Assembly: GCA_030593565.1 (NCBI GenBank)
Contig: JAUVGW010000006.1
Coordinates: 1-38,460, forward strand
DNA from: Phycisphaerae bacterium
Lineage (GTDB): Bacteria > Planctomycetota > Phycisphaerae > UBA1845 > UTPLA1
Length of the DNA: 38,460 nucleotides
Direction: 5' to 3'
The notes beneath the pieces are model-generated. The model was given only the letters and a program-made list of their open reading frames with translations. It searched no databases and was not told the origin of the DNA. Each line of letters opens with the position of its first letter. The first letter of the stretch is position 1. Position numbers and translations under genes: made by a program. This document shows positions 1,698 to 28,007 of the stretch, piece by piece.

Positions 1698-2051
1698 ATG
1701 CCCAGCATCGACCAGATACACAACCAGTTCGCCGTCGCGCTACTGGTTGCCGCCACGGCTGACTTGTTCGGGAATACCGCCGAGGCTGAAACGATCCGTG
1801 CTGATGCTGAGGAGGATTACCAGTCCGCAATCGGCAAAGTCCGAATGGGCGTCCTGTCCCGCCATCGCGCCGAATGCCATCACGCCCAAGCCGCCGGCGA
1901 CCCGATCATCAAGGGCGGCCAGGGCCGGTCGGATGCCGAGGCGCTGGACCATGCCGGTTCACTGTGGATCGTCGGCGCTACCATCGTTGTGGCCTGCCTC
2001 GTTGCCGGCGGCATCTACGCTCTGGCGTCCTTCTTGCGGAATGGAGGCTGA
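1698..2051 (+). CDS. Tail-anchored membrane protein, 117 aa
   Basis: The N-terminal 85 residues are soluble and helical (VALLVAATADLF, then a charged stretch with HRAECHHA). The C-terminus has one membrane helix (IVGATIVVACLVAGGIYALA) followed by a short FLRNGG tail. The last codons, AAT GGA GGC TGA, also supply the GGAGG ribosome site of the methyltransferase that follows, so the two genes are coupled. No family recognised. The ATG at 1698 follows a GAAAGGA site. Confidence 0.7.
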   Translation: MPSIDQIHNQFAVALLVAATADLFGNTAEAETIRADAEEDYQSAIGKVRMGVLSRHRAECHHAQAAGDPIIKGGQGRSDAEALDHAGSLWIVGATIVVACLVAGGIYALASFLRNGG

Positions 2052-2055
2052 CATT

Positions 2056-3294
2056 GTGGATATACGTTCCGAAGACTTCCGGATACTCTCTCTCTGCACA
2101 GGTGGAGGCGGTCTTGACCTCGGCGTCGAGCTGGCTCTGCCGGGCGCTCGCACAGTCTGTCGTGTGGAAAGGGAAGCATTCGCTGCCGAGGCTGTGGGCG
2201 CAGCGGTTGCGGAAGGATGCATGGATGAAGCGCCTTTGTGGTCGGATGTGCTCACCTTCGACGGCAAGCCGTGGCGTCGACGAGTTCATTGCATCACTGC
2301 CGGTTATCCCTGCCAACCCTTCAGTGTCGCCGGCAAGCGGCTCGGCAAATCCGACCCCCGACATCTCTGGCCCGAAGTCAGGCGGATCATTAGCGAAGTG
2401 GAACCGCCATTCGTGTTCTTGGAAAACGTTCCAGGCCACATTGTTCTCGGACTCGATGAAGTCATTGGAGCGCTTTCCGAAATCGGGTATGACGCGGCGT
2501 GGCTTCCTGTTTCCGCTTCCGAAGTCGGCGCCTCGCAGCGTCGGACGCGGCTCTTCATATTGGCCCATCGCCGCAGCGACGGATGGCGGAGCGCGGCGCG
2601 AGGGCAACGGCGGGAACAGGCTCAAGACGACCGCCGAGCACTGGACGACGCCCAGGGCGACCCCAGGCATGGCAACGTCACCGAGTCGGAAAGAGGTGGC
2701 GTTGGGCAATCCGAGGTGCAGAATAGAGGCGAGTGCGGCGATGTGGCACACGTCGATCGTCTCGCGTGGAGCACAGACGGCAGAGAATCCGACGCCTCGG
2801 CAGTTGGGCGGCACGAATCTGCGCGGACAGGCGAGGCGATGGGCGACGCCGACGGTGCGAGACAGCAGAGGTGCGAACAGTGCGGAGCATGTGAGTGCGC
2901 CGAGCAATCCCCACATGGACCAGCTGCCGAACCAGGCTTGCCACTATTCCCACCCGGCCCTAATGATGTTTCTGGATGGTCGCGTGCTCTCGGACTTGAC
3001 CCCATGCTCATCCCCGCCGACGGCAATCTCTGGCTCTGGACCGTTGCACGCAGAAATCTCGGTCTACCGCCGGTGGGCGATGCGGTCCGCCGGCGGAACG
3101 GTCGCCGGGGCGGGATGGCGCGGGGTTTGGATCAGGAAGCCGTCAGTGCGGTTAAATCCGAAGTTCGTAGGCTGGCTGATGGGCTGGCCAACCGGGCTGA
3201 CCAGCTTCGATTGCTCGGCAACGGGGTGGTCTCACTTCAAGCTGCGTATGCGCTGCGAACTCTCGCGGCTGCTGCCGGATGGAGGCTGACATGA
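2056..3294 (+). CDS. DNA (cytosine-5) methyltransferase
   Basis: The product transfers methyl groups from S-adenosylmethionine to cytosine C5, probably to protect phage DNA from restriction. Motif I is SLCTGGGGLDLG (about 12-23), motif IV GYPCQPFSVAG with catalytic Cys86, motif VI ENVPG (123-127), motif VIII QRRTR (161-165), and the C-terminal motif LLGNGVV (386-392). GTG 2056 is preferred because GGAGG at 2043-2047 sits eight bases before it; ATG 2041 is the alternative. The target-recognition region, about residues 175-330, is poor in hydrophobic residues and rich in Asp, Gly, Arg, His and Glu. It overlaps a second long frame (2225-3289) that looks conserved exactly there. The core motifs are intact; specificity is unknown. 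Confidence 0.9.
   Translation: MDIRSEDFRILSLCTGGGGLDLGVELALPGARTVCRVEREAFAAEAVGAAVAEGCMDEAPLWSDVLTFDGKPWRRRVHCITAGYPCQPFSVAGKRLGKSDPRHLWPEVRRIISEVEPPFVFLENVPGHIVLGLDEVIGALSEIGYDAAWLPVSASEVGASQRRTRLFILAHRRSDGWRSAARGQRREQAQDDRRALDDAQGDPRHGNVTESERGGVGQSEVQNRGECGDVAHVDRLAWSTDGRESDASAVGRHESARTGEAMGDADGARQQRCEQCGACECAEQSPHGPAAEPGLPLFPPGPNDVSGWSRALGLDPMLIPADGNLWLWTVARRNLGLPPVGDAVRRRNGRRGGMARGLDQEAVSAVKSEVRRLADGLANRADQLRLLGNGVVSLQAAYALRTLAAAAGWRLT
2225..3289 (+). CDS. Overprinted WPTPT-type protein within the methyltransferase gene
   Basis: A 354-residue frame lies inside the methyltransferase gene, shifted by one base and open throughout. It has the layout of a phage protein type I recall as overlapping such methyltransferases: an 'ASLPVIPANPSVSPASG' opening, 'SGPKSGGSLAKW', 'SCSWKTFQATL', 'RFPKSGMTRRG', then repeated W-x-T-P motifs (HWTTPRAT, RWATPTVRDSRG), and a C-terminal 'LNPKFVGWLMGWPTGLTSF' block followed by SATGW. 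Its stop (DGG then TGA) uses the same stop-plus-ribosome-site arrangement as other genes here and couples to RusA. Start uncertain (ATG 2225 or 2246; no clear ribosome site). No biochemical function known to me. It may be a real overprinted gene or a conserved non-coding shadow. Confidence 0.5.
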   Translation: MKRLCGRMCSPSTASRGVDEFIASLPVIPANPSVSPASGSANPTPDISGPKSGGSLAKWNRHSCSWKTFQATLFSDSMKSLERFPKSGMTRRGFLFPLPKSAPRSVGRGSSYWPIAAATDGGARREGNGGNRLKTTAEHWTTPRATPGMATSPSRKEVALGNPRCRIEASAAMWHTSIVSRGAQTAENPTPRQLGGTNLRGQARRWATPTVRDSRGANSAEHVSAPSNPHMDQLPNQACHYSHPALMMFLDGRVLSDLTPCSSPPTAISGSGPLHAEISVYRRWAMRSAGGTVAGAGWRGVWIRKPSVRLNPKFVGWLMGWPTGLTSFDCSATGWSHFKLRMRCELSRLLPDGG

Positions 3295-5677: not shown

Positions 5678-7042
5678 ATGACTGACAAGGCAGGCGTTGC
5701 AGCACTTAGACTCACCGTAAACAATGTCCTCGGCATCGAAACCGCCGACATCAAGTTCGGCCCCGCCGGCGAAGTGACCATCTTCGGCGGCGACAACGGG
5801 GAGGGCAAGACATCCCTCTTCGACGCGTTCCGGGCCGCCATCGCTGGCATGTCTGGCATGTCGGACATGGCGAAGAAGCCGATCCGCGACGGCGCTGAAT
5901 CCGGCTCTGTCGAAGTCACGCTTGACGGCGACACGCTGGCGTCTGGACCGTGGATTGTCCGGCGCACATTCACAAAGGGCGGCGCGTCGCGCGTCACGAT
6001 CACGAACAGCGACGGGGCGAAGTATCCGAGCGCGCAGGCGATGCTCAACAGGTTCATCGGCTCGCTGACGCTGGACCCGCTCGCGTTCATGCGGCTGACG
6101 GGGAAGGCCCAGATTGACGCGCTGCTCGATGTGGTGGACGTTGGCATTGACCTGGACGAGAACGCCGATGCCCGCGCGTTGGCGTCCCATAACCGGACGC
6201 TGGTTAACCGTGACGTGAAGGCGTTGAATGCGCAGCTTGACGGGATGCCGAATCCGGGCGACGATGTGCCTGATGAAGAGGTAGATATCGGGGGGCTTCT
6301 GCTTGACATTGACTCCGCCTCGAGGCACAACAGCGAGAATGATGAATGCCGTCGCGATTACCGGAACGCCGCTTGTGTTGTAGACGTCGGCGCGAAGGAG
6401 TGCGTTGCCGCTGAATCTGCTGTTGCTGACGCAGAGCGTGCGCTTGCCGCCGCGAAACAGATACTTTCCGACGCCAATGGCTTCGCGGCTACAGATCGCC
6501 GCGCTCTGACCGGCGCTAAAGCCGCCGCCGACAAATGCGTGGACATCGACACCGCTGCGCTCACGGCCCGCGTCACGGAAGCCGGGCAGGTCAACGTCAA
6601 GGTGCGGCAGAATCAGGCGCTGGCAGAGAAACGGCGCGAGGCCATTGCTGCGGCGGGCGAGTCTGACGCTCTGACCAGCGAGATCACGATGCTCGATTCC
6701 GAGAAGCGCGCCGCCCTGGCCGCAACCGACTTCCCCGTCCCCGGCATGGGCCTGGACGATAACGGTATCACGTTCGGCGGTATTCCGCTCTCGCTACGAT
6801 CCAGCGCCGAGCGGCTCAAGATATCGCTCGCACTGGCGATTGCACAGAGTCCCGAGCTGCGCGTGGTGTTGATCCGCGACGGGAGCCTGCTGGACAAGAA
6901 AAGCATGGCGACGGTCGCTGCAATGGCCGAGGAGCACGGGATCGGAATCTGGGTCGAGCGCGTTGGCGATGCTGATGAGGGTGCGGTCATCATGGCAGCC
7001 GGGCGGGTTCGCGGAGCGGAGGAGGCTACCGATGCAGACTGA
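5678..7042 (+). CDS. RecF/Rad50-like AAA ATPase of the recombination module
   Basis: The 454-residue protein has a Walker A motif GGDNGEGKTS (37-46), a central helical segment (about 175-330) rich in Ala, Glu and Lys that could form a short coiled coil, an ABC-type signature (LRSSAERLKISLALAIA, about 373-389) and a late 'VVLIRDGSLLD' strand in place of a canonical Walker B. SMC/RecF-like ATPases of this compact form often accompany phage exonuclease and RecT genes and are thought to help load or regulate the nuclease. Its stop overlaps the start of the RecE-like gene by 11 bases, consistent with coupled synthesis. Confidence 0.85.
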   Translation: MTDKAGVAALRLTVNNVLGIETADIKFGPAGEVTIFGGDNGEGKTSLFDAFRAAIAGMSGMSDMAKKPIRDGAESGSVEVTLDGDTLASGPWIVRRTFTKGGASRVTITNSDGAKYPSAQAMLNRFIGSLTLDPLAFMRLTGKAQIDALLDVVDVGIDLDENADARALASHNRTLVNRDVKALNAQLDGMPNPGDDVPDEEVDIGGLLLDIDSASRHNSENDECRRDYRNAACVVDVGAKECVAAESAVADAERALAAAKQILSDANGFAATDRRALTGAKAAADKCVDIDTAALTARVTEAGQVNVKVRQNQALAEKRREAIAAAGESDALTSEITMLDSEKRAALAATDFPVPGMGLDDNGITFGGIPLSLRSSAERLKISLALAIAQSPELRVVLIRDGSLLDKKSMATVAAMAEEHGIGIWVERVGDADEGAVIMAAGRVRGAEEATDAD

Positions 7043-7877
7043 CCTCACGAAGCATGAACCCATGACCTACGCCGCATACCACAACATGCCCGGCGTGCGC
7101 AGTTCGCTGCTCGCGCAGATGCTGGACTCGCCCGCGATGTATCGGCACGTCAAGAGCAACCCAATTGAACCGAAGCCGGCCATGTTGCTCGGCACGGCGA
7201 TCCACACCGCCGTACTGCAGCCAGATCTGTTTGAGTCGGAGATCGTCGTCTGGACTGGCGGCGCGCGGAGGTCCGATGCGAAGAAGGCAGAGTATGCCGA
7301 GTTCGCGCGTGACGCCATCGACAACCACAAAACCGTCGTGGACGCCGGGCAGAGGGTGAAGGCGAAGCGCATTGCCGGAGCTGTCATGGCGGACCCGGAA
7401 TCCGCCGACATCATCAACTCAAGCGAAAAGGAAGTCGTCTACACGTGGACCGACCCGTGGACCGGGATCGACTGCAAGGCGCGCATTGACCTGGTCCGCG
7501 ACGATGGCGCGGTCTTCGACCTAAAGAGCACACGAACCGCAGACCCGTTTCTGTTCGCCCGGCAGTCGCAGGACTTGGACTACTGGATGAGGCTGGCGAT
7601 GTACCGAGTCGGTGCCGCGCTCGTCAGTCCCGTGCCCGAAGTCGGGATCATCGCCGCGTGGACCGGCCTTCCATACTTCGGCTATGTTCACGCCTACGAG
7701 CTTCAGGAAACGCACCTTGCCTACGGCGAGGACGAGTACTTTGGCTGCCTGAAGCGGCTGAAGGAGTGTTTGGATACGGACGTGTGGCCCGGCCCAGCGT
7801 TCCCCCCGTATCTGGACCGTCCTGCCTACAGTATGCCAAAGAAGGACGCAGGCCCGCTGGACTTCGACGGAATCTAA
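7032..7877 (+). CDS. RecE-like PD-(D/E)XK exonuclease
   Basis: RecE-type exonucleases resect double-stranded ends to give 3' single strands for annealing. The 281-residue product has the GTAIH motif (54-58), a central 'WTGIDCKARIDLV' strand with Asp153, and VFDLKST with Asp163 and Lys165, which together form the metal-binding nuclease core. The 'LDYWMRLAMYR' helix matches the conserved Q/Y helix of the fold. Length fits a stand-alone nuclease domain rather than the long E. coli RecE. It sits between the ATPase and RecT, the usual recombinase cassette order. Confidence 0.87.
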   Translation: MQTDLTKHEPMTYAAYHNMPGVRSSLLAQMLDSPAMYRHVKSNPIEPKPAMLLGTAIHTAVLQPDLFESEIVVWTGGARRSDAKKAEYAEFARDAIDNHKTVVDAGQRVKAKRIAGAVMADPESADIINSSEKEVVYTWTDPWTGIDCKARIDLVRDDGAVFDLKSTRTADPFLFARQSQDLDYWMRLAMYRVGAALVSPVPEVGIIAAWTGLPYFGYVHAYELQETHLAYGEDEYFGCLKRLKECLDTDVWPGPAFPPYLDRPAYSMPKKDAGPLDFDGI

Positions 7878-7889
7878 CAAGGAGAAGCA

Positions 7890-8816
7890 ATGACTGACAA
7901 CACCCCCGCACGCCGCGAAAGCTCCGTCGCCACACTGGCAAAGCAGAAGCGCGCCAAGCTCAAGGCGATGCTCTCAATGGAAAGCGTACAGGCCGGCCTC
8001 ATCGAGGTTGCCCGCGAAGAGATAGACCCGCAGCGCATGATGCGCATGGTCATGGTCGCCGCGATAAAGAACCCGGAGATCCTGGAATGCACAGCCGAGA
8101 GCGTTCTGCGCGTCCTAATGGAGTGCGCCGAGCTTGGCCTTGAGCCGTCCAGTATTCGCCAAGAGGCCCACATAATCCCGTACAAGAGCAGCAGTAGGGC
8201 AGGCATTACAGAGGCGACGTTACAGATCGGCTACAAGGGCGTTGAGAAGCTCGTGCGCCGGTCGGGGTTTGTGGATGTGATCAACGCTGTGTGTGTCCAC
8301 GATGGCGACTTGTTCGAGGTGGAGCTTGGCCTGAACCCAACACTCAAGCACCTGATGGGCACAGGCCCGCGCCAGGATTCGACGATCACGCACGTCTATG
8401 CTTACGCCAAACTATCGAATGGCGCCAAGAAGTTCGAAGTGCTCGACCGTGGCGAGATCAACAAGATACGTGGTTGCGCGTATGAGCGCAGCAAGCCCTG
8501 GGAGCAGTGGTATGGCGAGATGGCGAAGAAGTCCGCCATAAAGCGGCTTGCCAAGCACCTTCCCATGGACGATCAAGGGAGCGCCGCTATAGCCCTTTCA
8601 GAGCGCCGAGAGATTGGCGACAACACACCGCTTGTGGATTCCGACGTGCTGGCCGACCGGATATCGGCGCAGATGCCGGCTTCCGCTGAGCAAGAACCGC
8701 CACCGCCCGAGCCGGTAGACTGCGAAGTCGAAGCCCCGCCCGCCGAAGAGTGGCGGCGTGATGGCGAAGAGCCGTTCGATATTTCCGATGATGACATTCC
8801 AATGGATGAGGAGTAG
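7890..8816 (+). CDS. recT: RecT-family single-strand annealing protein
   Basis: RecT binds single-stranded DNA left by the exonuclease and anneals homologous strands. The 308-residue product shows the family core: 'ESVLRVLMECAELGLEPS' (about 70-87), 'QEAHIIPYKS', 'EATLQIGYKGVEKLVRRSG' and a later 'YERSKPWEQW...MAKKSAIKRLAKHLP' region. The last 65 residues are Pro-rich and acidic and end in SDDDIPMDEE, which resembles the acidic tip of single-strand binding proteins and could recruit host partners. An AAGGAG site precedes the ATG. Confidence 0.9.
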   Translation: MTDNTPARRESSVATLAKQKRAKLKAMLSMESVQAGLIEVAREEIDPQRMMRMVMVAAIKNPEILECTAESVLRVLMECAELGLEPSSIRQEAHIIPYKSSSRAGITEATLQIGYKGVEKLVRRSGFVDVINAVCVHDGDLFEVELGLNPTLKHLMGTGPRQDSTITHVYAYAKLSNGAKKFEVLDRGEINKIRGCAYERSKPWEQWYGEMAKKSAIKRLAKHLPMDDQGSAAIALSERREIGDNTPLVDSDVLADRISAQMPASAEQEPPPPEPVDCEVEAPPAEEWRRDGEEPFDISDDDIPMDEE

Positions 8817-13489: not shown

Positions 13490-13667
13490 CCTGCCGACTG
13501 GCCCATTCGCAACCATCTACGCGGATCCGCCGTGGCGGTTCGACAACAGGACAGGCCGCGCCGCACCTGAGTGCCCCAGGCTGTGGCGCTATCCCACTAT
13601 GCCGATCGTCTTTCTAGAGAGGGCCAGACATGGCTCGCCTATCCGAGGGCTGAATGGCAAAAGCTAA
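13470..13667 (+). pseudogene. MT-A70-type adenine methyltransferase, N-terminal remnant
   Basis: Residues 13-44 match the start of MT-A70-like N6-adenine methyltransferases: FATIYADPPWRFDNRTG with the catalytic DPPW (19-22), then RLWRYPTM. The family continues for another 130 or more residues after this block, but here the match ends abruptly and the frame runs through 20 unrelated residues to a stop just past the terminase start. The cut lies about 50 bases before the terminase ATG and has the look of a recombination or deletion scar. No activity is expected. Confidence 0.75.
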
Positions 13668-15729
13668 CCCAAAGGCGACCGCGTACGAGAAGCACAAGGG
13701 CCGCACCGCCGCGCTTCAGCGGAAGAAGTCTGCCGCCGGGCGCGATATCGGCTCGATACCGGATATCGTGGACATCGCGCGGCGTGAGGCGTGCCGTTTC
13801 TGCTTCAGAACGTATCTCGAAACGTATCACGCGCACCTATTCTTCCGCCCGTTCTCAAAGCTGCATTACGACCTGATCGGGGCGATTCAATACGCGATTC
13901 TCGTTGGGCGCATGAAGGCGCTGGCGGTGTTCCGCAGCTTCGGCAAGTCAACAATCATGGAGTTCGGCACGCTGTGGGCAACGAAGTACGGGCACTGGCG
14001 GTATGCGCTACTGATCGCAGCGACGGCCGATATCGCAGTGCAGAACTTGGACAACATTCTGATGCCACTGCTGCACAACGACCTGCTCCTCGAAGACTTC
14101 CCGGAGATATGCTTCCCGCTCCGGGCGCTTGAAGGGACTCCGCAGAAGGCGGCGGGACAGTTGTGCGAGGGCAAACAGACGCATGTGAAAGTCAAGAAGG
14201 ATAGCATCCGGTTCCCCTGGCTACCTGACCTCGACGTGCCCAGCAATGGTGGCTACATCCACACAATCGGCGTGGGCGGCGCAATGCGCGGCATGAACAT
14301 AACTCTGCCCAGTGGCGAGCGTGTGAGGCCAGACGGGGCGTTGTGCGACGACGTGCAGACGCGCGAGTCGGCCATGAGTGCGCGCAAGTCCGATGTTGTT
14401 GAGATGACGCTGGACCGCGACATGGCATATCTGTGTGACGCCGCCGAGTCGCTATCGGCCTTGCTGGCCTGCACCATAGTCGCGCAGGGAGATGTTGCCG
14501 ACCGGGTTACAGACCGAACGAAGCACCCTGAATGGGCTGGCGAGCGCCACAAGATGCTGATAACGCTCCCCGAAAACGAAGCGCTCTGGGAGCAGTACAG
14601 TGACATGTGGCGTGCGGAGCTGGCCGACTCGGCATCGCATGACGTGTCCATGGCGCTCTACGTCGAGAATCGTGTCGCCATGGACCTGGGCGGAGAGGCA
14701 AGTTGGAAGGAGCTGTTCAACAGGAAGGATGAGATATCCGCCATTCAACACGGCATGAACCTGAAGGCCAAGAACGAGGGCGCGTTCTGGTCAGAGGCGC
14801 AGAACATGCCGCCGAGCGACGAGGGGGTATCGACCGGGCTGCTCACCGCCGACGAGATTGCTGGCCAACTATCCATGCACAAGCGCGGGCTGATTCCGGC
14901 AGAGACGACGCACATCACGGGCTATATCGACGTTCACGACGACCTGCTGTACTGGGTTGTATGCGCGTGGCAGGATGATTTTACCGGGTTCGTTGTAGAT
15001 TACGGGACATTGCCAAAGCAGAAGGGTAGGCACTTTGTGAAGCGAACCGCGCGCACGACGATGAAGACGGAGTACAGTGGCGGCGAGGAAGCGCAAGTTA
15101 GGCAGGGACTCAACGCCGCCGCTGATCTGCTTCTTGGCCGCGAGTGGGCGGGACATGGCGACACCGCGTATCTGATCGACCTCTGCATTGTAGACGGCGG
15201 GTGGCGCGCAGACCTTGTAAGAGAGTTCTGCCGGTCTAGCGAATACGGCACTAAGTTGATGGTGAGTTTTGGCAAAGGAATCGGCGCCGGCAAAAAGCCG
15301 TTCGATGAGTATGTGAAAAAGAAGGGTGTAAAGACCGGCTTGCATTGGCGTCAGCCGAAGCCGCAACCAGGGCACAGACGGCACACAACCATAGATACGA
15401 ACTACTGGAAGACGTTCGTCCACATGAGGTTTGCGACTACGCCGGGAACGACCGGGAGCCTGACGCTCTACGGGAAGCGTGCCGACATGCACGCGCAGTT
15501 CTCCGATCACATGGTGGCAGAATACCGCGTGCAGACAGAGGGGCGCGACCGGCGCGTTGACGAATGGTTCCCGCGCGCCGACCACAGAGACAACCACTGG
15601 TTCGACTGCATCGTCGGCTGCGCGGTCGGTGCGAGCATCCTGGGCGTCCACTTGGCCGGGACATCGAAAGCCTCGAAGCCGGGGAAGCGGAAGCGGATTC
15701 GATACAGCGACGCGAAGAGGAATCGTTGA
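13654..15729 (+). CDS. Terminase large subunit
   Basis: The protein packages phage DNA: an N-terminal ATPase motor and a C-terminal RNase H-like nuclease. A Walker A-like FRSFGKST (93-100) and a Walker B-like DGALCDDVQT (residues 227-236, with the DD at 232-233) mark the motor. The nuclease half has YIDVHDD (Asp426) and a late DNHWFDCIVGCAVGAS helix with the terminal acidic residue. At 691 residues it resembles GpA-like large terminases. No small subunit was recognised nearby; the gene follows the methyltransferase remnant, so one may have been lost there or may be among the unknown small genes. GAGGG precedes ATG 13654. Confidence 0.85.
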   Translation: MAKANPKATAYEKHKGRTAALQRKKSAAGRDIGSIPDIVDIARREACRFCFRTYLETYHAHLFFRPFSKLHYDLIGAIQYAILVGRMKALAVFRSFGKSTIMEFGTLWATKYGHWRYALLIAATADIAVQNLDNILMPLLHNDLLLEDFPEICFPLRALEGTPQKAAGQLCEGKQTHVKVKKDSIRFPWLPDLDVPSNGGYIHTIGVGGAMRGMNITLPSGERVRPDGALCDDVQTRESAMSARKSDVVEMTLDRDMAYLCDAAESLSALLACTIVAQGDVADRVTDRTKHPEWAGERHKMLITLPENEALWEQYSDMWRAELADSASHDVSMALYVENRVAMDLGGEASWKELFNRKDEISAIQHGMNLKAKNEGAFWSEAQNMPPSDEGVSTGLLTADEIAGQLSMHKRGLIPAETTHITGYIDVHDDLLYWVVCAWQDDFTGFVVDYGTLPKQKGRHFVKRTARTTMKTEYSGGEEAQVRQGLNAAADLLLGREWAGHGDTAYLIDLCIVDGGWRADLVREFCRSSEYGTKLMVSFGKGIGAGKKPFDEYVKKKGVKTGLHWRQPKPQPGHRRHTTIDTNYWKTFVHMRFATTPGTTGSLTLYGKRADMHAQFSDHMVAEYRVQTEGRDRRVDEWFPRADHRDNHWFDCIVGCAVGASILGVHLAGTSKASKPGKRKRIRYSDAKRNR

Positions 15730-18056: not shown

Positions 18057-18254
18057 ATGACCGACCTGACCGATACCATCGCCGAGAACGCAGCCGGGCC
18101 GCGCAAAATGGAAGCTGACGGCATGGTTGCCGAGCAGCACAGCCTCCCTGACCAGATCGCGGCGGATAAGTACGCCAAGGGGCAGGCTGCGGCTGCGTCA
18201 GGAGGCATCGGAGTTCGCTTTCTCCGCATCAAGGCTCCGGGGGCTGGCGGATAG
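18057..18254 (+). CDS. Small conserved head protein before portal, 65 aa
   Basis: The product (TDTIAENAAGPRKMEADGM at the N-terminus, 'SLPDQIAADKYAKG' in the middle and 'GIGVRFLRIKAPG' at the end) is a type I recognise beside lambda-family portal genes. The position suggests a head-assembly or connector role, similar in place to lambda gpW, though sequence does not prove it. GGAGG lies nine bases before the ATG. Its stop overlaps the portal start by one base. Confidence 0.7.
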   Translation: MTDLTDTIAENAAGPRKMEADGMVAEQHSLPDQIAADKYAKGQAAAASGGIGVRFLRIKAPGAGG

Positions 18255-19651
18255 TGGCGAAGCAGCGCAACAGAATCAGCTACCACGACGAGATGGCGCA
18301 TGCGCTTGCGGCCAGTTTTGACCTTGCGCGTGTATCAGGCGTCAACGAGAACCACTGGGCGAATGCAGATGGCCTGAGCGCCGACGCAGCGATGTCCCCG
18401 AGCGTGCGGCGGATAGTGCGCAACAAGTGCATCCATGAGGTCGCAAACAACTCATGGTTGCGCGGGATCGTTGAAACGCTGGCCAACGATGTCATTGGTA
18501 CCGGCCCGCGCCTGCAATCGCTTCTCGACAGCCGCGATGAGAACAGGCGTATTGAGACGTTGTTCCATAGGTGGACGATGGCCACACGGCTCGCCAAGAA
18601 GTTGCGCGTGGGCTATAAGGGCAAGCTCCAGTGCGGCGAGGCTATCGGCGTTCAGTTCACGAACCCAGTGTTACGCACGCCCATCAAGCTGGATGTGTGC
18701 ATGGTTGAGTCCGCGCGGTTGGCGACGCCTGACCTGCTTCTGCCGCGCGCGAACGAGGTTGACGGGATCAAGTTTGACGCATATGGCAATCCAAAGTCCT
18801 ATAGCATTCTGGACGCCCACCCTGGTTCGCTACAGCCGACAATGAGCATGTCCGCCACGGACTATCCGGCATCGTCGGTAATGCACTGGTTCCGCGAAGA
18901 TCGTGCGGGCCAGCATCGAGGGCTCCCCGAAGTCATGGCCGCGCTTGAGCTTCTTGCTGTCTTGCGCCGATACACGTTTGCGACTGTGACGGCGGCCGAG
19001 ACAGCCGCGAACCTAGCCGGGATTCTCAAGACTGATACCGCGCCGGAAGAGAGCGGGGACATGGCGACCCCGTACGAAGAGATTGATATTGTCGCCAACA
19101 CGCTGACGGTAATGCCCGACGGCTATAGTATGCAGCAGTTCAAGGCCGAACAGCCGACAGCCACTTACGTTGAAGCCCGAAACGCTGTGCTACTCGAAGC
19201 CGTGCGTTGCATCCTGATCCCGTGGAACATCGCCGCTGGGGACAGCTCCAACTACAACTTCGCGTCTGGCCGGCTTGACCATAAGACATATTGGGGAATG
19301 ATCGGTGTCGTGCGTAGCGACTGCGAGCTGGAAATGGTCGAGCCGGTGTTCGAGTCGTGGAATCAGGAAGCTGCGTTGCTCGGACTTGCCCCAGACGACC
19401 TGCCGCACAAGTGGATGTGGCCGGGCATGATACCAGGCGACGAGAAGAAGGCGGCTGAAGCGCAAGAGGTTCGGCTGCGGGTTCACACGACGACCTACTC
19501 TGACGAATACGGCAAGATGGGCTTGGACTGGGAGGAGCAGTTCCGCCAGATAGCCGACGAGAAGAGGCTGATGAATGAGCTTGGCCTGACAGTCGAGGAC
19601 GTAGCGCCGGCCGAAGTGCCCGACCACGAACATGAGGACGACGATGAGTAA
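18254..19651 (+). CDS. Portal protein, lambda family
   Basis: The portal is the dodecameric ring through which DNA enters the head and to which the tail joins. The 465-residue product has family features: RIVRNKCIHEVANNSWLRGI, 'ANDVIGTGPRLQS', 'VMHWFREDRAGQHRGLPEV' and a membrane-adjacent region with 'CILIPWNIAAGDSSNYNFAS'. GTG 18254 is the start, overlapping the previous stop. The end overlaps the capsid gene by eight bases. The C-terminus is acidic, as is common in portals. Confidence 0.9.
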   Translation: MAKQRNRISYHDEMAHALAASFDLARVSGVNENHWANADGLSADAAMSPSVRRIVRNKCIHEVANNSWLRGIVETLANDVIGTGPRLQSLLDSRDENRRIETLFHRWTMATRLAKKLRVGYKGKLQCGEAIGVQFTNPVLRTPIKLDVCMVESARLATPDLLLPRANEVDGIKFDAYGNPKSYSILDAHPGSLQPTMSMSATDYPASSVMHWFREDRAGQHRGLPEVMAALELLAVLRRYTFATVTAAETAANLAGILKTDTAPEESGDMATPYEEIDIVANTLTVMPDGYSMQQFKAEQPTATYVEARNAVLLEAVRCILIPWNIAAGDSSNYNFASGRLDHKTYWGMIGVVRSDCELEMVEPVFESWNQEAALLGLAPDDLPHKWMWPGMIPGDEKKAAEAQEVRLRVHTTTYSDEYGKMGLDWEEQFRQIADEKRLMNELGLTVEDVAPAEVPDHEHEDDDE

Positions 19652-21716
19652 ACGCAAGCTGCACAAAGTCCCGTCAGAGTTCAAGCTGACCGCTGCGGCG
19701 GTGATGACATTCGCGGACGATGACGAGAAGAGCCTGCCGACGTTCACGCTCAACGCCTACAACGGCGGCCCGATGCGGTTCTGGCAGTTCTATCACCCCG
19801 TCGTCATTGATCTGAGAGGGCTGAAGGTCGGTGCGAAAAAGCGCCCTGCGCTGTATTCACACGACCGACTCAAGCCAGTTGGGCATACAGTGGGGGCCTC
19901 AAAAGGCGTGTCCAGCCTGGCGCTTGAAGGTGTCATGTCTGTGGACACGGAAGACTCGCGCATGATCGTTTCTGCCGCTCAGAATGGGTTCCAGTGGCAG
20001 GTAAGCGTTGGCGTCAAAGTCACGAAGATAGTGCTTGTCGCAGAAGGTAAGACAGTAAAAGTCAACGGGGAGCTCATGGAGGGGCCGCTTTACGTGGCCA
20101 AGAAGTCAGAGCTGCAAGAGGTAAGTTTTGTAACACTCGGAGCGGATGACACTACATCCGCCAAAATCGCGGCCATGCAGGCCGACTTTACCCAGGAGGG
20201 CAGTAACATGAAGTATGAGGAATGGCTGGCCGCAAAAGGCTTCGACGGCGATCTGACCGAGGAGCAGGAAGTGTCACTCAAGGCGATGTACAAGGCCGAG
20301 ATGGCTGACCTCAAGGCCAAGGCTGACGCCAACAAGGGGCTTGGCAAGGTGCCGGTCAATCTCGATGCTGCCGAAACGCCCGCGCCGGTCGCCACGGCTG
20401 CTGACGCCGTTGCAGAGGTTCGCGCCGCCGCAGCCGACGAGAAGCTGCGAATCATCGACATCAATACCCTCGAAGCCGACTTTGACGGGGCCGACAAAAT
20501 CAAGGCCGAGGCGATCAAAGGCGGCGTGACTGTCATTGAGGCCGAGCTGAACCTACTCCGTGCTGGCCGGCCCAAACCCCCCGCGATTCATCAGCACGCG
20601 CCGACCGCTACCCCCGACGTGCTCGAAGCGGCAGTGTGCCTGGCGACGAGCCTGCCCGCCATTGAGGACCATTTCCCCGAGCAGACGCTGGACGCCGCGC
20701 ACACGCAGTTCCGCAACCAAGTCGGGCTTCAGGAGATCCTCCTGGCTGCGGCTTTCCAAGGAGGCTACTCCGGGCGGCATCGGATCAGCACGGGCAATCT
20801 CCCAGACGTTCTGCAAGCTGCCTTCAGCACATCCGACATTTCCGGCATTCTCGGCAATGCTGCAAACAAGCATTCGCTCGCAGCGTTCATGCACACCGAC
20901 CAGGCATGGCGTGCGATCGTCGCAACCAAGAATGTCGCGGACTTCAAGGTGAACACGAGCTACCGCTTAGGTGCAGACGCAAAGTTCAAGAAGGTTGGAG
21001 CTGGCGGAGAACTGTCACATGGTACGCTCAGTGAGGAATCGTTCACAAACCAGGCAGAGACCTTTGGGCGCATGTTTGCGATCACCCGGCAGGATATTAT
21101 CAACGACGATCTCGGTGCATTGACGCAGGGGCCGAAGTTGCTCGGGCATGGCGCCGGCATTTCACTGAACGAACTGATCTGGAAGCTGTTCATGGACAAC
21201 CTCGCGTTCTTTACGTCTGCGCGAAACAACTACGCGGAGGGCGCTGACACCGCGCTGTCCCTTGCCGGGCTAAAAACTGCCGATACGCTTCTGCGTAAGC
21301 AGAAGGACGCCGAGGGAAACCCGCTTGGCCTCAAGCCTGCAATTCTCTTGGTTCCGACCGGACTCCGAACAGATGCGCTCGGATGGGCACATGATACCGA
21401 AGTCAACGAGACCACGACTGCGAATAAGGCCAAGCCGAAAAAGAACCCGTTCAGCGGCGCCTTCAAGCCCGTTGACACGCCGTATCTCAGCGATACGGAC
21501 TTTACGGGCAACAGTGTGTTGAAGTGGTACCTGCTGGCCGATCCACGGGTCATACCGGTCATTGAGGTGGCGTTCCTGAACGGGGTCCAGGCTCCGACAA
21601 TCGAACACGCAAGCGCCGATTTCAAAACGCTCGGCATTCAGATGCGCGGCTATCATGACGTAGGCGTTGCGATGCAGGACTATCGCGGCGGCGTCGCCAT
21701 GAAGGGCGAAGCGTAA
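19644..21716 (+). CDS. Prohead protease-scaffold-major capsid fusion
   Basis: The 690-residue protein joins three functions. Residues about 1-185 are protease-like, with 'ALYSHDRLKPVGH' (His73), 'WQVSVGV' (Ser121) and 'ELQEVSFVTLG', the layout of serine prohead proteases. Residues 189 to about 330 are charged and helical, like a scaffold (delta) region. Residues about 340-690 carry the capsid fold (RMFAITRQDIINDDLGAL and later 'LLADPRVIPVIEVAFL'), near Mu gpT-like capsid proteins. A strong internal start at 20208 would give scaffold-capsid without protease. ATG 19644 is preferred over ATG 19632. Confidence 0.85.
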   Translation: MSKRKLHKVPSEFKLTAAAVMTFADDDEKSLPTFTLNAYNGGPMRFWQFYHPVVIDLRGLKVGAKKRPALYSHDRLKPVGHTVGASKGVSSLALEGVMSVDTEDSRMIVSAAQNGFQWQVSVGVKVTKIVLVAEGKTVKVNGELMEGPLYVAKKSELQEVSFVTLGADDTTSAKIAAMQADFTQEGSNMKYEEWLAAKGFDGDLTEEQEVSLKAMYKAEMADLKAKADANKGLGKVPVNLDAAETPAPVATAADAVAEVRAAAADEKLRIIDINTLEADFDGADKIKAEAIKGGVTVIEAELNLLRAGRPKPPAIHQHAPTATPDVLEAAVCLATSLPAIEDHFPEQTLDAAHTQFRNQVGLQEILLAAAFQGGYSGRHRISTGNLPDVLQAAFSTSDISGILGNAANKHSLAAFMHTDQAWRAIVATKNVADFKVNTSYRLGADAKFKKVGAGGELSHGTLSEESFTNQAETFGRMFAITRQDIINDDLGALTQGPKLLGHGAGISLNELIWKLFMDNLAFFTSARNNYAEGADTALSLAGLKTADTLLRKQKDAEGNPLGLKPAILLVPTGLRTDALGWAHDTEVNETTTANKAKPKKNPFSGAFKPVDTPYLSDTDFTGNSVLKWYLLADPRVIPVIEVAFLNGVQAPTIEHASADFKTLGIQMRGYHDVGVAMQDYRGGVAMKGEA
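20193..20210 (+). promoter_or_regulatory. Internal ribosome site and start in the capsid fusion gene
   Basis: AGGAGGG at 20193-20199 followed eight bases later by ATG 20208 is in frame with the protease-capsid gene at the border between protease and scaffold. Starting here would give a 502-residue scaffold-capsid protein. It resembles in logic the internal start that yields scaffold Nu3 within lambda gene C. Confidence 0.55.
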
Positions 21717-25217: not shown

Positions 25218-25462
25218 CGCTCCGCGAGCTGTGGTGGATGGCCGAAGGTCGCGACCGTGACATGCTGTGGCAGCTCGGCACGATCATGGCGCAGCAGGCG
25301 AACATCTACCGCGACCCTGAGGAGTGTCCCGACCTCATCACGCCCGAGGATATTTTCCCGGTGCTGGCCGACGACATACCCGCTGTTGAAACCGAAGAGT
25401 CGGACAAGCCCGTATCGTCATTCAGAATGCTCTTGAGAGGACAACAGCATGGCCGGGAGTAA
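25016..25462 (+). CDS. Tail assembly chaperone, -1 frame extension (T-like)
   Basis: In the -1 frame, residues around 'EDQDIWKLIWQVAGRIGI' and 'DPRPLTLRELWWMAEGRD' (coded near 25155-25250) are clearly protein-like and match the second half of lambda G/GT-type chaperones. No ATG, GTG or TTG start exists upstream in this frame near the block, and starting at ATG 25238 would drop it, so synthesis by -1 frameshift is most likely. A Gly/Arg-rich stretch joins it to the G part. The end overlaps the tape measure gene by 14 bases. Confidence 0.6.
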   Translation, partial: PRPPRAAAEEGAGQGGRGDGEGAERGRDGDRQRGRRQGDQGCGGEDQDIWKLIWQVAGRIGIDPRPLTLRELWWMAEGRDRDMLWQLGTIMAQQANIYRDPEECPDLITPEDIFPVLADDIPAVETEESDKPVSSFRMLLRGQQHGRE

Positions 25463-28007
25463 AGGAATACGAGCGGGAAAGGCGTTCGTTGAACTTTACG
25501 TTACGGACAACAAGTTCACGCGGGGTCTGCGCAAGGCACAGCGTCGGCTTGCGGGCTTCGGAGCTGGCGTCGGTGCAATGGGCCGGAAGCTGGCGATGTT
25601 CGGCGGCATTGGCGTGGCCGCGTTTGGCGCGACGGCCAAGGCGTTCGGGAACTTCGAGGAGCAGATGGCGCGGGTGTCCACGATGCTGCGCGAGCCTGAG
25701 AAGTGGATGAAGAGCTACACGAAGGCTGTCCGCGACATGTCTATTGAGTTCGGGCAGTCTACGGAGGTCGTCGCCGACGGGCTTCGCAAGATTCTGTCAG
25801 CACAGATCGCGCCAGAGGGGGCGCTTGGCTTCCTGCGTGCCGCGAGCGAGGCTGCGATTGCCGGAAGCACCGACGTGTCGAACTCCGTTGACGCGCTGCT
25901 GAACATTATCAACGCGTACGGACTAGAGGCCAAAGACGCCACCGACATCTCAAACCTGCTGTTTCGGGTCATCTTCAAGGGCAGGATCACGTACGAGGAG
26001 CTTGCAGACTCGCTTGGGCACGTCGCTACGATGGCCAGCGCGGCAGGCATCACGCTGGAAGAGACTGGCGCGACGATAGCGACACTGACCAGGAACGGGT
26101 TGCAGTCGCGTCGGGCAATGACCGCGTTCAAGTCTGCGCTGATCGCTATCGTCAAAGGCGAGTCACTGACAGGGGCCAAGGGGCCGACTGCGCAAATGAG
26201 GGAACTCGGCATGGTCCTGTCCGAGGACACGCTGAAGGCGAAGGGGTTCGCAGGCATGATGCGGGAGCTTGGCGACGTCAACTTCGGCACCCTTGTGAAG
26301 TTCTTCCCAAAACGGTCGGCGCTCGGCATCGTGACGATCTCCAAGCATCTTGAGGGGTTTCAAGAGGATTTGGACGATATGGCAGACCGGGCAGATGCCA
26401 CGAATAGGAAGTTTGCCGAGATGGCGGCTGTTGTAAACCATGCGTGGCGCCAAGTCAAGCAGGCTGCGATGGCTGCCGCGGTCGCGCTCGGCAAGGCTCT
26501 CGGCCCGACGCTCAAGAAGGTCGCCAAGAACGTGAGGGAGGCGCTTGCTGAGGTTACGGCGTGGATCGAGGCGAACCAGGAGCTTGTGCTCACGGTATTC
26601 TCCGCCACAGTGGCGGTAACGGGTCTGGGCGTCGCGCTGATGGCGGTGGCCGTCCCGTTCACGATGGCGGCAATGGCGCTGGGCGGGCTGGCCACGACGG
26701 TTGGGCTACTCATAACGCTTCTGGGCTTCCTGAAGGCGGCGCTCATCGGGACGGTCAGCGTGCTGGGCGCGGTCAAGCTGGCGGTGATCCTGCTGAAAGC
26801 GGCGTTTGTGGTATTGAAGGTGGTCGTAGCCGCGACAATCATAACACTGGGCGTGCTCAAGGCGGGCGTGGTCATATTGAGCGCAGTCGTCAGCGCGTCG
26901 ATTGTGGCGCTGGCGCTATTCAAGGCGACGTTCCTGACAACGAGCGTTTCGGTCTGGCTCCTGACCGGCACGCTTGCTGTCTTGAAGGTCGGGCTGCTTG
27001 TGCTGACGGGCGTGCTCGGCATCCTGAAGGTTGCGCTTGCGGCAACGTGGGTAGTGGCGCTCGGGCCTATCGGTCTGGTGCTGGCCGGATTCGCGGCAGT
27101 GCTGGCGGCTGTAGTGCTCCTGTCCGGCGCTGTCAAGGGACTGCTCGGGATATTCGACAACGTGGGCGACACGTTCAGCGAGTTCGGCGAGCAGGCCATG
27201 GCGGCGTTCGAGATCATCAAGACCGCGCTGAAGTCTGGCGATTACAAGACCGCGGCAAAGGCCATGTGGGCGGGTATCAAGATGGCGTGGGCTACAGGAA
27301 TCGCGGCGTTGGAGAAGATGTGGGCGAACTTCAAGATGGGGTTCGTAGAGTCAGGGTCGGAGATGCGGTATGCGATAAAAGACATCCTGGCGCGCGCGCG
27401 GACTGGCGCACGCCGCGTGGTTCCGTTCGTGGACGCCGATCCGGGAAGGCGAGACAGGGAGATCGCCGCAGCGGCCAAGGAGCATACCGATACGACTGAA
27501 GAGCGGCGCGCAGCGATGTACAAGGCGATCGACGACGAACTTGCCGAGCGCATGGCTGAATATGCCGACGAACTGACAGAGATCACGAACGCGATGAACG
27601 CGGACAAGATGCACGACGCGATGGAGTCGCTGGTCGGCAAGATCGGCGACCTGGCGGACGAGTATGGCGTGACGGCGCAGCACGTCAAGTCGGCCGGCTC
27701 GGGAATAGCTGGAATGCTTGGCCTAGTCGCCGGCCCGGCTGGCTACGGCCTACTGGGCGGTCTCGCCGGTCTTGGCGAGCTGGGCGCGGACGCGCTGGCG
27801 TTCATGGCAAGCAAAGCCGCCGCCGCCGCGCCCTCTGCCGCGCCCGCCATGGGCGCACTCGGCGGCGCGACTACGGGCATGTTCAACGTGCAGGCCGCGT
27901 TCGGGCTTGGCACGACTGGCCAGAAGCGGGATGAGTTGCTGGCGCTGATTGCGCGAAACACACAGGACACAGTAGACAACACAGAAGATATGGGGGTGTT
28001 TGAATGA
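25449..28007 (+). CDS. Tail tape measure protein, 852 aa
   Basis: The tape measure sets tail length; at about 1.5 angstrom per residue 852 residues predict a tail near 130 nm. The N-terminus fits TP901-type tape measures (GKAFVELYVTDNKFTRGLRK, then FEEQMARVSTML and 'AMTAFKSALIAI'). Residues about 380-560 form an exceptionally long hydrophobic series of helix-like segments spaced by single Lys. The C-terminus is helical and Ala-rich. It follows the chaperone pair in standard order. Confidence 0.87.
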   Translation: MAGSKGIRAGKAFVELYVTDNKFTRGLRKAQRRLAGFGAGVGAMGRKLAMFGGIGVAAFGATAKAFGNFEEQMARVSTMLREPEKWMKSYTKAVRDMSIEFGQSTEVVADGLRKILSAQIAPEGALGFLRAASEAAIAGSTDVSNSVDALLNIINAYGLEAKDATDISNLLFRVIFKGRITYEELADSLGHVATMASAAGITLEETGATIATLTRNGLQSRRAMTAFKSALIAIVKGESLTGAKGPTAQMRELGMVLSEDTLKAKGFAGMMRELGDVNFGTLVKFFPKRSALGIVTISKHLEGFQEDLDDMADRADATNRKFAEMAAVVNHAWRQVKQAAMAAAVALGKALGPTLKKVAKNVREALAEVTAWIEANQELVLTVFSATVAVTGLGVALMAVAVPFTMAAMALGGLATTVGLLITLLGFLKAALIGTVSVLGAVKLAVILLKAAFVVLKVVVAATIITLGVLKAGVVILSAVVSASIVALALFKATFLTTSVSVWLLTGTLAVLKVGLLVLTGVLGILKVALAATWVVALGPIGLVLAGFAAVLAAVVLLSGAVKGLLGIFDNVGDTFSEFGEQAMAAFEIIKTALKSGDYKTAAKAMWAGIKMAWATGIAALEKMWANFKMGFVESGSEMRYAIKDILARARTGARRVVPFVDADPGRRDREIAAAAKEHTDTTEERRAAMYKAIDDELAERMAEYADELTEITNAMNADKMHDAMESLVGKIGDLADEYGVTAQHVKSAGSGIAGMLGLVAGPAGYGLLGGLAGLGELGADALAFMASKAAAAAPSAAPAMGALGGATTGMFNVQAAFGLGTTGQKRDELLALIARNTQDTVDNTEDMGVFE

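Follow-up and report, generated by a model that had tools for sequence, protein, structure and literature searches.

In this study, we analysed a 38,460-nt stretch of DNA (hereafter the window), and our results indicate that one of its loci very probably encodes a single C5-cytosine DNA methyltransferase (MTase) as two polypeptides produced from overlapping reading frames of the same DNA. The alpha polypeptide (frame 1, f1) would consist of the AdoMet-binding and catalytic motifs I–VIII, an unconstrained linker and then motif X, and the beta polypeptide (frame 2, f2) of a short conserved N-terminus, a W-x-T-P recognition region and motif IX. Alpha and beta probably begin almost together behind one GGAGG, and f1 would run on to motif X through the recognition region, which it reads as an open linker. 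Beta would supply the DNA-recognising small domain on the catalytic domain of alpha, and the assembled enzyme would methylate phage DNA as a measure against host restriction. We infer the alpha–beta complex, its methylation activity and its methylation target from the evidence set out below.

A scan of the reading frames of the window revealed that f1 is open from 1747 to 3294 and that f2, the +1 frame whose codons begin at the second base of f1 codons, is open from 1874 to 3289. The span that is open in both frames represents nearly the entire methyltransferase gene (2054–3289). An earlier note on this DNA had reported two frames open together for more than 1,000 bases at 2225–3289, which is confirmed, although the extent is wider. 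Alpha was assigned to 2041–3294 of the forward strand, with ATG 2041 or GTG 2056 as its start, based on PF00145, AlphaFold2 (AF2) and Foldseek, and beta to 2054–3289 of the same strand based on phrog matches, codon-position and stop-avoidance tests, and its conserved N-terminus. The gene that follows encodes RusA (PF05866, 1.4e-14), whose ATG at 3291 is overlapped by the f1 stop (3292–3294). The f2 stop, TGA 3287–3289, falls within GGAGGctgACATG and, as had been noted earlier, belongs to the same stop-plus-GGAGG arrangement that starts RusA (GGAGG, f2 stop and RusA ATG at 3281–3293, forward strand). The leader TGGAGGCTGACAT is identical at 2042–2054, before the methyltransferase, and at 3280–3292, before RusA; both copies overlap the stop of the preceding gene and thus form a repeated coupled-start cassette. 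By its gene content the window (1–38460) resembles a tailed-phage genome or provirus, as it has a DUF3799 nuclease (6963–7877), RecT (7890–8816), a terminase (13654–15729), a portal (18254–19651), a head protease/major head protein (19632–21716) and a minor tail protein (25449–28007). No close relative of the window was found among 392 genomes of its phylum.

The f1 product matched PF00145 (6.2e-29, residues 13–208) and carries PCQ (motif IV), ENV (VI), QRRTR (VIII) and LLGN, all in one chain, with motifs I–VIII at about 2083–2566 and motif X (LLGNGVVSLQA) at 3208–3243. Having motifs I, IV, VI and VIII in one chain identifies it as a C5-cytosine DNA methyltransferase. In a usual monomeric enzyme the recognition region and motif IX are in the same chain as motifs I–VIII; here both are in f2. 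The f1 family profile aligned to residues 11–174 of M.HhaI (motifs I–VIII) and no further. In the AF2 model of f1, pLDDT was mostly >90 for residues 11–180, mostly <50 for residues 182–296, and 85–95 around residues 391–411, which form the motif X helix. Foldseek comparison of that model matched M.HhaI and M.HaeIII over 171–184 columns only. By these results, f1 as modelled is a catalytic domain plus motif X without a recognisable small domain. A second conserved stretch, LxPPGPxDxxxW, is present family-wide between the linker and motif X (residues 298–320 in the window); its W313 is invariant, and it is coded by f1 and not by f2.

The earlier note had placed PCQ, ENV, QRRTR and LLGN in f1 and the W-x-T-P motifs and LNPKFVGWLMGWPTG in f2, and all were found in those frames. 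The f2 W-x-T-P modules are W-T-T-P at 2642 and W-A-T-P at 2840, with degenerate copies at about 2561 and 2743. They are part of a putative target-recognition region at 2567–3148 of the forward strand that, based on f1 p3/p1 (the ratio of change at third to first codon positions), is an open unconstrained linker in f1. The motif IX block, LNPKFVGWLMGWPTG, is at 3152–3196 (forward strand, f2) and was conserved in all 22 of the f2 rows compared, with the L, M and G invariant. Searches with f2 identified phrog_1008, which is labelled DNA methyltransferase (1e-24), and phrog_27243, which is labelled unknown function (1.5e-16). Our comparisons indicate that f2 carries motif IX (LNPKFVGWLMGWP) and the W-x-T-P target-recognition region of the same enzyme, both of which are absent from f1, because single-ORF enzymes align both frames in order. 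The idea that f2 encodes a separate phage protein beside the methyltransferase is therefore replaced by one in which f2 would be the enzyme’s own recognition region and motif IX. Pfam and NCBIfam searches of f2 had no meaningful match, nor did a profile search of solved structures, and AF2 of f2 alone produced a poor fold (mean pLDDT 58.5) with no structural match to the model. The assignment of beta as the small domain is thus a prediction from sequence position and motif IX/X homology. As for the two phrog entries, phrog_27243 is the C-terminal part of beta (1e-145 to the f2 of locus L022) and phrog_1008 is the beta family, with members that have and members that do not have motif X; both entries could be renamed.

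The recognition region is hypervariable, which makes the identities of window f1 and f2 within it uninformative by themselves. The W-x-T-P modules, which are ~35–40 residues long, look shuffled among the Salmonella, Pseudomonas and E. coli prophage copies (L095, L097, L261, L262, L263, L264), and locus L072 has about seven of them. Possibly, the modules are exchangeable specificity units, an idea that comes from comparing the SEN5, Haboob and E. coli copies.

Evidence on the order of the parts was obtained from actinophages. Six actinophage-type loci (L084, L085, L089, L092, L093, L099) have an f1 that ends soon after motif VIII; there the L-P-T-P modules, the x-P-x-F-x-E-W-M-M-G block and motif X are all carried by f2 alone. 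The C-terminal part of phrog_116 was matched by the f2 proteins of L084, L085 and L089, and its upstream part by f1 proteins. In the single-ORF enzyme of Gordonia phage Leonard (L094), L092 f1 aligned to residues 2–187 and L092 f2 to residues 352–513 (3e-32). In the single-ORF L005, window f1 aligned to residues 2–155 and 329–352, and motif IX of window f2 aligned, weakly (E=0.005), between them at residues 278–298, a position between motifs VIII and X of L005. The single-ORF actinophage enzymes hold all the parts in the predicted order. At the level of sequence, these computations show that the actinophage f2 part is homologous to the C-terminal half of single-ORF MTases, and they weakly suggest homology of window f2 to the single-ORF enzymes. 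Two of the loci are mosaics. L005 (1935–3068; Gordonia phage Baddon) has P-T-P modules in f2 and motifs IX and X in f1, and L094 (397–1956) retains P-T-P modules in f2 though f1 has its own set. From these mosaics it appears that the frame assignment of the recognition region has changed in evolution.

To follow coding constraint along the gene, a codon alignment of 70 loci was made, of which pairs at 70–97% identity were used (64 loci, with ~55% nucleotide identity to the window). As f1 position 1 is f2 position 3, a p3/p1 <1 in f1 means that f2 is the coding frame. In the 64 loci, f1 p3/p1 was 3–6 in codons 41–140 (motifs I–VI), 0.07–0.49 in codons 181–300 (recognition region), 0.21 at motif IX and 1.77 at motif X; most of the sampled relatives are Rhodobacterales, and the pair sets are not fully independent. 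A second set of 2,787 pairs had values of 2.86 for motifs I–VI, 0.44 for the recognition region, 0.24 for motif IX and 0.89 for the part after motif IX. A strict non-redundant set lessens shared ancestry, of which some remains. The ratio of f1 synonymous change to that expected was 0.9–1.2 in codons 49–144, 0.46–0.64 in codons 145–168 of L022 and mostly 0.03–0.4 after codon 177, with values of 0.73–1.04 in codons 313–328, the site of the conserved f1 PPGPxD segment. Coding constraint therefore passes from f1 (motifs I–VIII) to f2 (recognition region and motif IX) and back towards f1 (motif X). This handing over of constraint between frames, which the earlier note had proposed, is borne out by both p3/p1 and synonymous change in the related loci. 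Likewise, the middle of f1, described there as hydrophilic and poorly structured, is not a conserved domain, given its low p3/p1 in those loci. The reduction in f1 synonymous change anticipated by that note was found to set in ~30 codons short of where motif VIII ends and to last through the rest of the gene, but was absent from most of motifs I–VI. Stop avoidance and f1 synonymous change together define a dual-coded zone at 2420–2566 (forward strand), in which f1 motifs VI–VIII lie over a conserved f2 segment, S-W-K-T-F-Q...SGMTRRG.

Further evidence for translation of both frames was obtained from stop codons in 99 dissimilar lineages, in which synonymous f2 codons were shuffled across the recognition region. 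A strong internal control exists within the family, as motif X is in f1 in some lineages and in f2 in others. In the 88 lineages with motif X in f1, five f1 stops were present versus 272 expected, and 86 of the 88 had none, whereas the five actinophage lineages with motif X in f2 had 14 f1 stops versus 13.5 expected. The third-frame control had 397 stops versus 381 expected. Across the recognition region f1 is kept open, its amino acids otherwise free, evidently because motif X lies beyond. In the last 50 codons of motifs I–VIII there were no f2 stops versus 32 expected (43 lineages), and f2 is therefore translated from well upstream of the junction. On this evolutionary evidence, the computations show that both frames are translated in the family, and presumably also in the window. 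Together, the shuffles, codon-position and stop tests support the earlier suggestion that one stretch serves two proteins.

The start of beta was considered next to that of alpha. In the window, a putative ribosome-binding site, GGAGG (2043–2047, forward strand), is located 6 nt upstream of TTG 2054, which is followed by W-I-Y-V-P (2057–2071, forward strand), a match to the family pattern W-x-[YFHV]-[VILK]-P. TTG 2054 is probably the beta start, with ATG 2456 as an alternative. The same GGAGG lies 8 nt before GTG 2056, a possible alpha start that appears better placed to the ribosome site than ATG 2041. In many lineages the open f2 frame reaches back as far as the methyltransferase start, its first residues being M-(x)-W-x-[YFH]-[VIL]-P; a typical f2 start site is (A/G)TGAATGTGG, in which the alpha start codon and the beta ATG nearly coincide. 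The W-x-[YFHV]-[VILK]-P motif was identified in the f2 of 142 of 196 loci, with one match in the other two frames. Most of its variation is at f2 third positions, and its distance to motif I differs between loci. As it is specific to f2, varies at third positions and is at a variable distance from motif I, the motif appears to be conserved as part of the f2 protein. Mycobacteriophages have a conserved f2 GTG behind GAGAGG inside the alpha gene, and it is so annotated in L092. In the window, a twin start would be the route of expression.

Well over 100 further loci in phages and bacteria share the double-frame arrangement. These were gathered with the f2 protein, the f1 protein and the f2 profile in viral and genome collections, and from annotated phage records. 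They range from 44 to 71% GC and include Paenibacillus, Lactobacillus, Synechococcus, Acidovorax, Salmonella and Pseudomonas phages, as well as many alphaproteobacterial genomes. The LNPxxVxWLMG block was found in 243 places, in 234 of which it is in the +1 frame of a C5 MTase motif I–VIII block. Three others have it in the same frame as the MTase, three in the other frame, with an apparent extra indel, and three are without an MTase match, with truncation of the contig in at least one case. In a first-pass classification, f1 continued open beyond the block in 186 places and was closed in 16. No convincing stand-alone f2 gene was found, the candidates being L067, which is a truncated contig, and L079, which has no upstream MTase match. 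The f2 homologue outside methyltransferase overlaps that the earlier note sought thus did not emerge, as 237 of the 243 places are in the +1 or same frame with a C5 MTase. In that note’s own terms this confinement counts against its reading, and it is expected here because an enzyme subunit predicts it. Annotation of the loci varies between f1, f2 or both; Paenibacillus phage Bloom has both as overlapping CDS, and in some E. coli prophages with the arrangement RefSeq annotates f1 only.

The overlap at the window locus is genuine and not due to chance. Shuffling of synonymous f1 codons in the window produced a mean of 4.5 f2 stops versus the one observed, which is the natural terminal stop, and an f2 run of 398 codons had p=0.003. 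Shuffling of f2 codons led to an expectation of ~3 f1 stops versus none observed (p=0.017–0.028). These shuffles in both directions contradict the view that f2 arises mechanically from GC-rich codon bias and a conserved methyltransferase sequence, to which we assign a negligible probability, even though long alternative frames are common at 60–66% GC and conserved f1 motifs dictate f2 pieces such as SGMTRRG. In addition, f2 shows its own codon-position pattern, and unrelated C5 MTases in two fetched loci, examined as controls, have 11–17 f2 stops. AT-richer cases exist as well, in Paenibacillus and Lactobacillus phages (44–46% GC) and in E. coli prophages with f2 runs of 269–311 codons (p <= 0.0005). 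On all these grounds a by-product of GC bias was rejected for the family as a whole.

Two other explanations accept that both frames are coding. A +1 ribosomal frameshift near the end of motif VIII could produce a fused protein, instead of or besides two polypeptides. The f1/f2 junction sits where a fusion yields the normal MTase order, and fused forms exist, such as the single ORFs of L094 and L174. We nevertheless consider a frameshift unlikely, as one at the junction would not need f2 stop avoidance over the 50 preceding codons (0 versus 32 expected) and the fusion in the window would be without motif X. The conserved f2 start motif at the 5' end, and the mycobacteriophage f2 GTG with its GAGAGG site inside the alpha gene, also argue against it, although a frameshift might still operate in some lineages. 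It is highly improbable that f2 is an independent overprinted gene, e.g. an anti-restriction or regulatory one, which shares its DNA with a complete methyltransferase, because neither a constrained recognition region nor motif IX is present in f1 and f2 occurs essentially only with C5 MTases. Moreover, in actinophages f1 closes after motif VIII, and the enzyme is completed by an f2-type sequence that carries motifs IX and X. In favor of an independent gene, f2 begins at the 5' end of the MTase and possesses a conserved N-terminal motif of its own, and databases give f2 families the label ‘unknown function’ (phrog_27243) in addition to ‘DNA methyltransferase’.

The closest precedent for a methyltransferase of two polypeptides from overlapping frames is M.EcoHK31I (YGGCCR), whose beta is read in an alternative frame within the alpha gene and to which the window is likened by motif layout, not by sequence. 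In that two-polypeptide C5 MTase the larger polypeptide has motifs I–VIII and X and the smaller has motif IX (PMC3404938), with the recognition domain placed in alpha by prediction. The window similarly has a large polypeptide with motifs I–VIII and X, and its motif IX would be on a second polypeptide in the other frame of the same DNA. It differs in that constraint puts its recognition region in beta, and in that it has W-x-T-P modules, a twin start and a beta frame that covers almost all of the alpha gene. M.AquI (CYCGRG) is a split C5 MTase in which alpha has motifs I–VIII and beta the distal variable region and motifs IX and X (PMC3404938). Catalytic motifs I–VIII in alpha, and the recognition region and motif IX in beta, are shared with the window, whereas motif X of the window is in f1/alpha and not in the second polypeptide. 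The six actinophage-type loci are of the M.AquI type. Paired actinophage genes annotated as ‘DNA methyltransferase’ (Noelle 77/76, Iracema64 79/78 and KHumphrey 42/43) also have their halves in +1 overlapping ORFs, but with a short overlap, motif X in f2 and f1 closed after motif VIII. The ShiLan element (PMC11855218), an HNH endonuclease, is likewise a hidden protein encoded out of frame within a phage methylase gene. It is, however, an insertion, namely a homing endonuclease that has an HNH domain, whereas window f2 would be the enzyme’s own recognition region and is family-wide. Such an HNH element was rejected as the identity of f2, which had no HNH family match.

Novel features of these loci are the scale of the phenomenon, the placing of the recognition region in frame 2, the linker that is read through and the conserved twin start. 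To our knowledge, same-strand overlapping genes of ~1.2 kb that are conserved across phage groups are rare. No paper on the phage-wide pattern was found in the literature searched, which was mostly without subscription journals or REBASE. For us it is an evenly balanced question whether the loci represent a large class of methyltransferases of phages and prophages that has gone unrecognised, in which the recognition subunit is permanently printed over the catalytic one with a common start, so that catalysis and specificity come from one short gene. The W-x-T-P modules would then be specificity cassettes whose exchange leaves the catalytic frame unaffected, provided that the other frame stays open. 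The reason for the overlap would be readable from the sequence, with one frame kept open solely to let the ribosome reach motif X. Public annotation, which has either frame alone, f2 as ‘hypothetical’ or f2 as a methyltransferase without its partner, would be corrected. Potentially, the E. coli prophages are a common and laboratory-accessible system for measuring evolution under two simultaneous reading frames. A prediction is that frame 1 cloned alone would yield an inactive enzyme.

Several individual loci depart from the general layout. Locus L174 (3–1271) has motifs I–VIII and the f2 part in one ORF, either because the two fused naturally or because of an indel in the assembly. In L156, motifs IX and X share a frame; this locus is from the same genome as L179, which is of the +1 type. 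Lastly, L228 (151–1952) has a second f2-type protein (912–1952) directly behind a complete alpha/beta pair.
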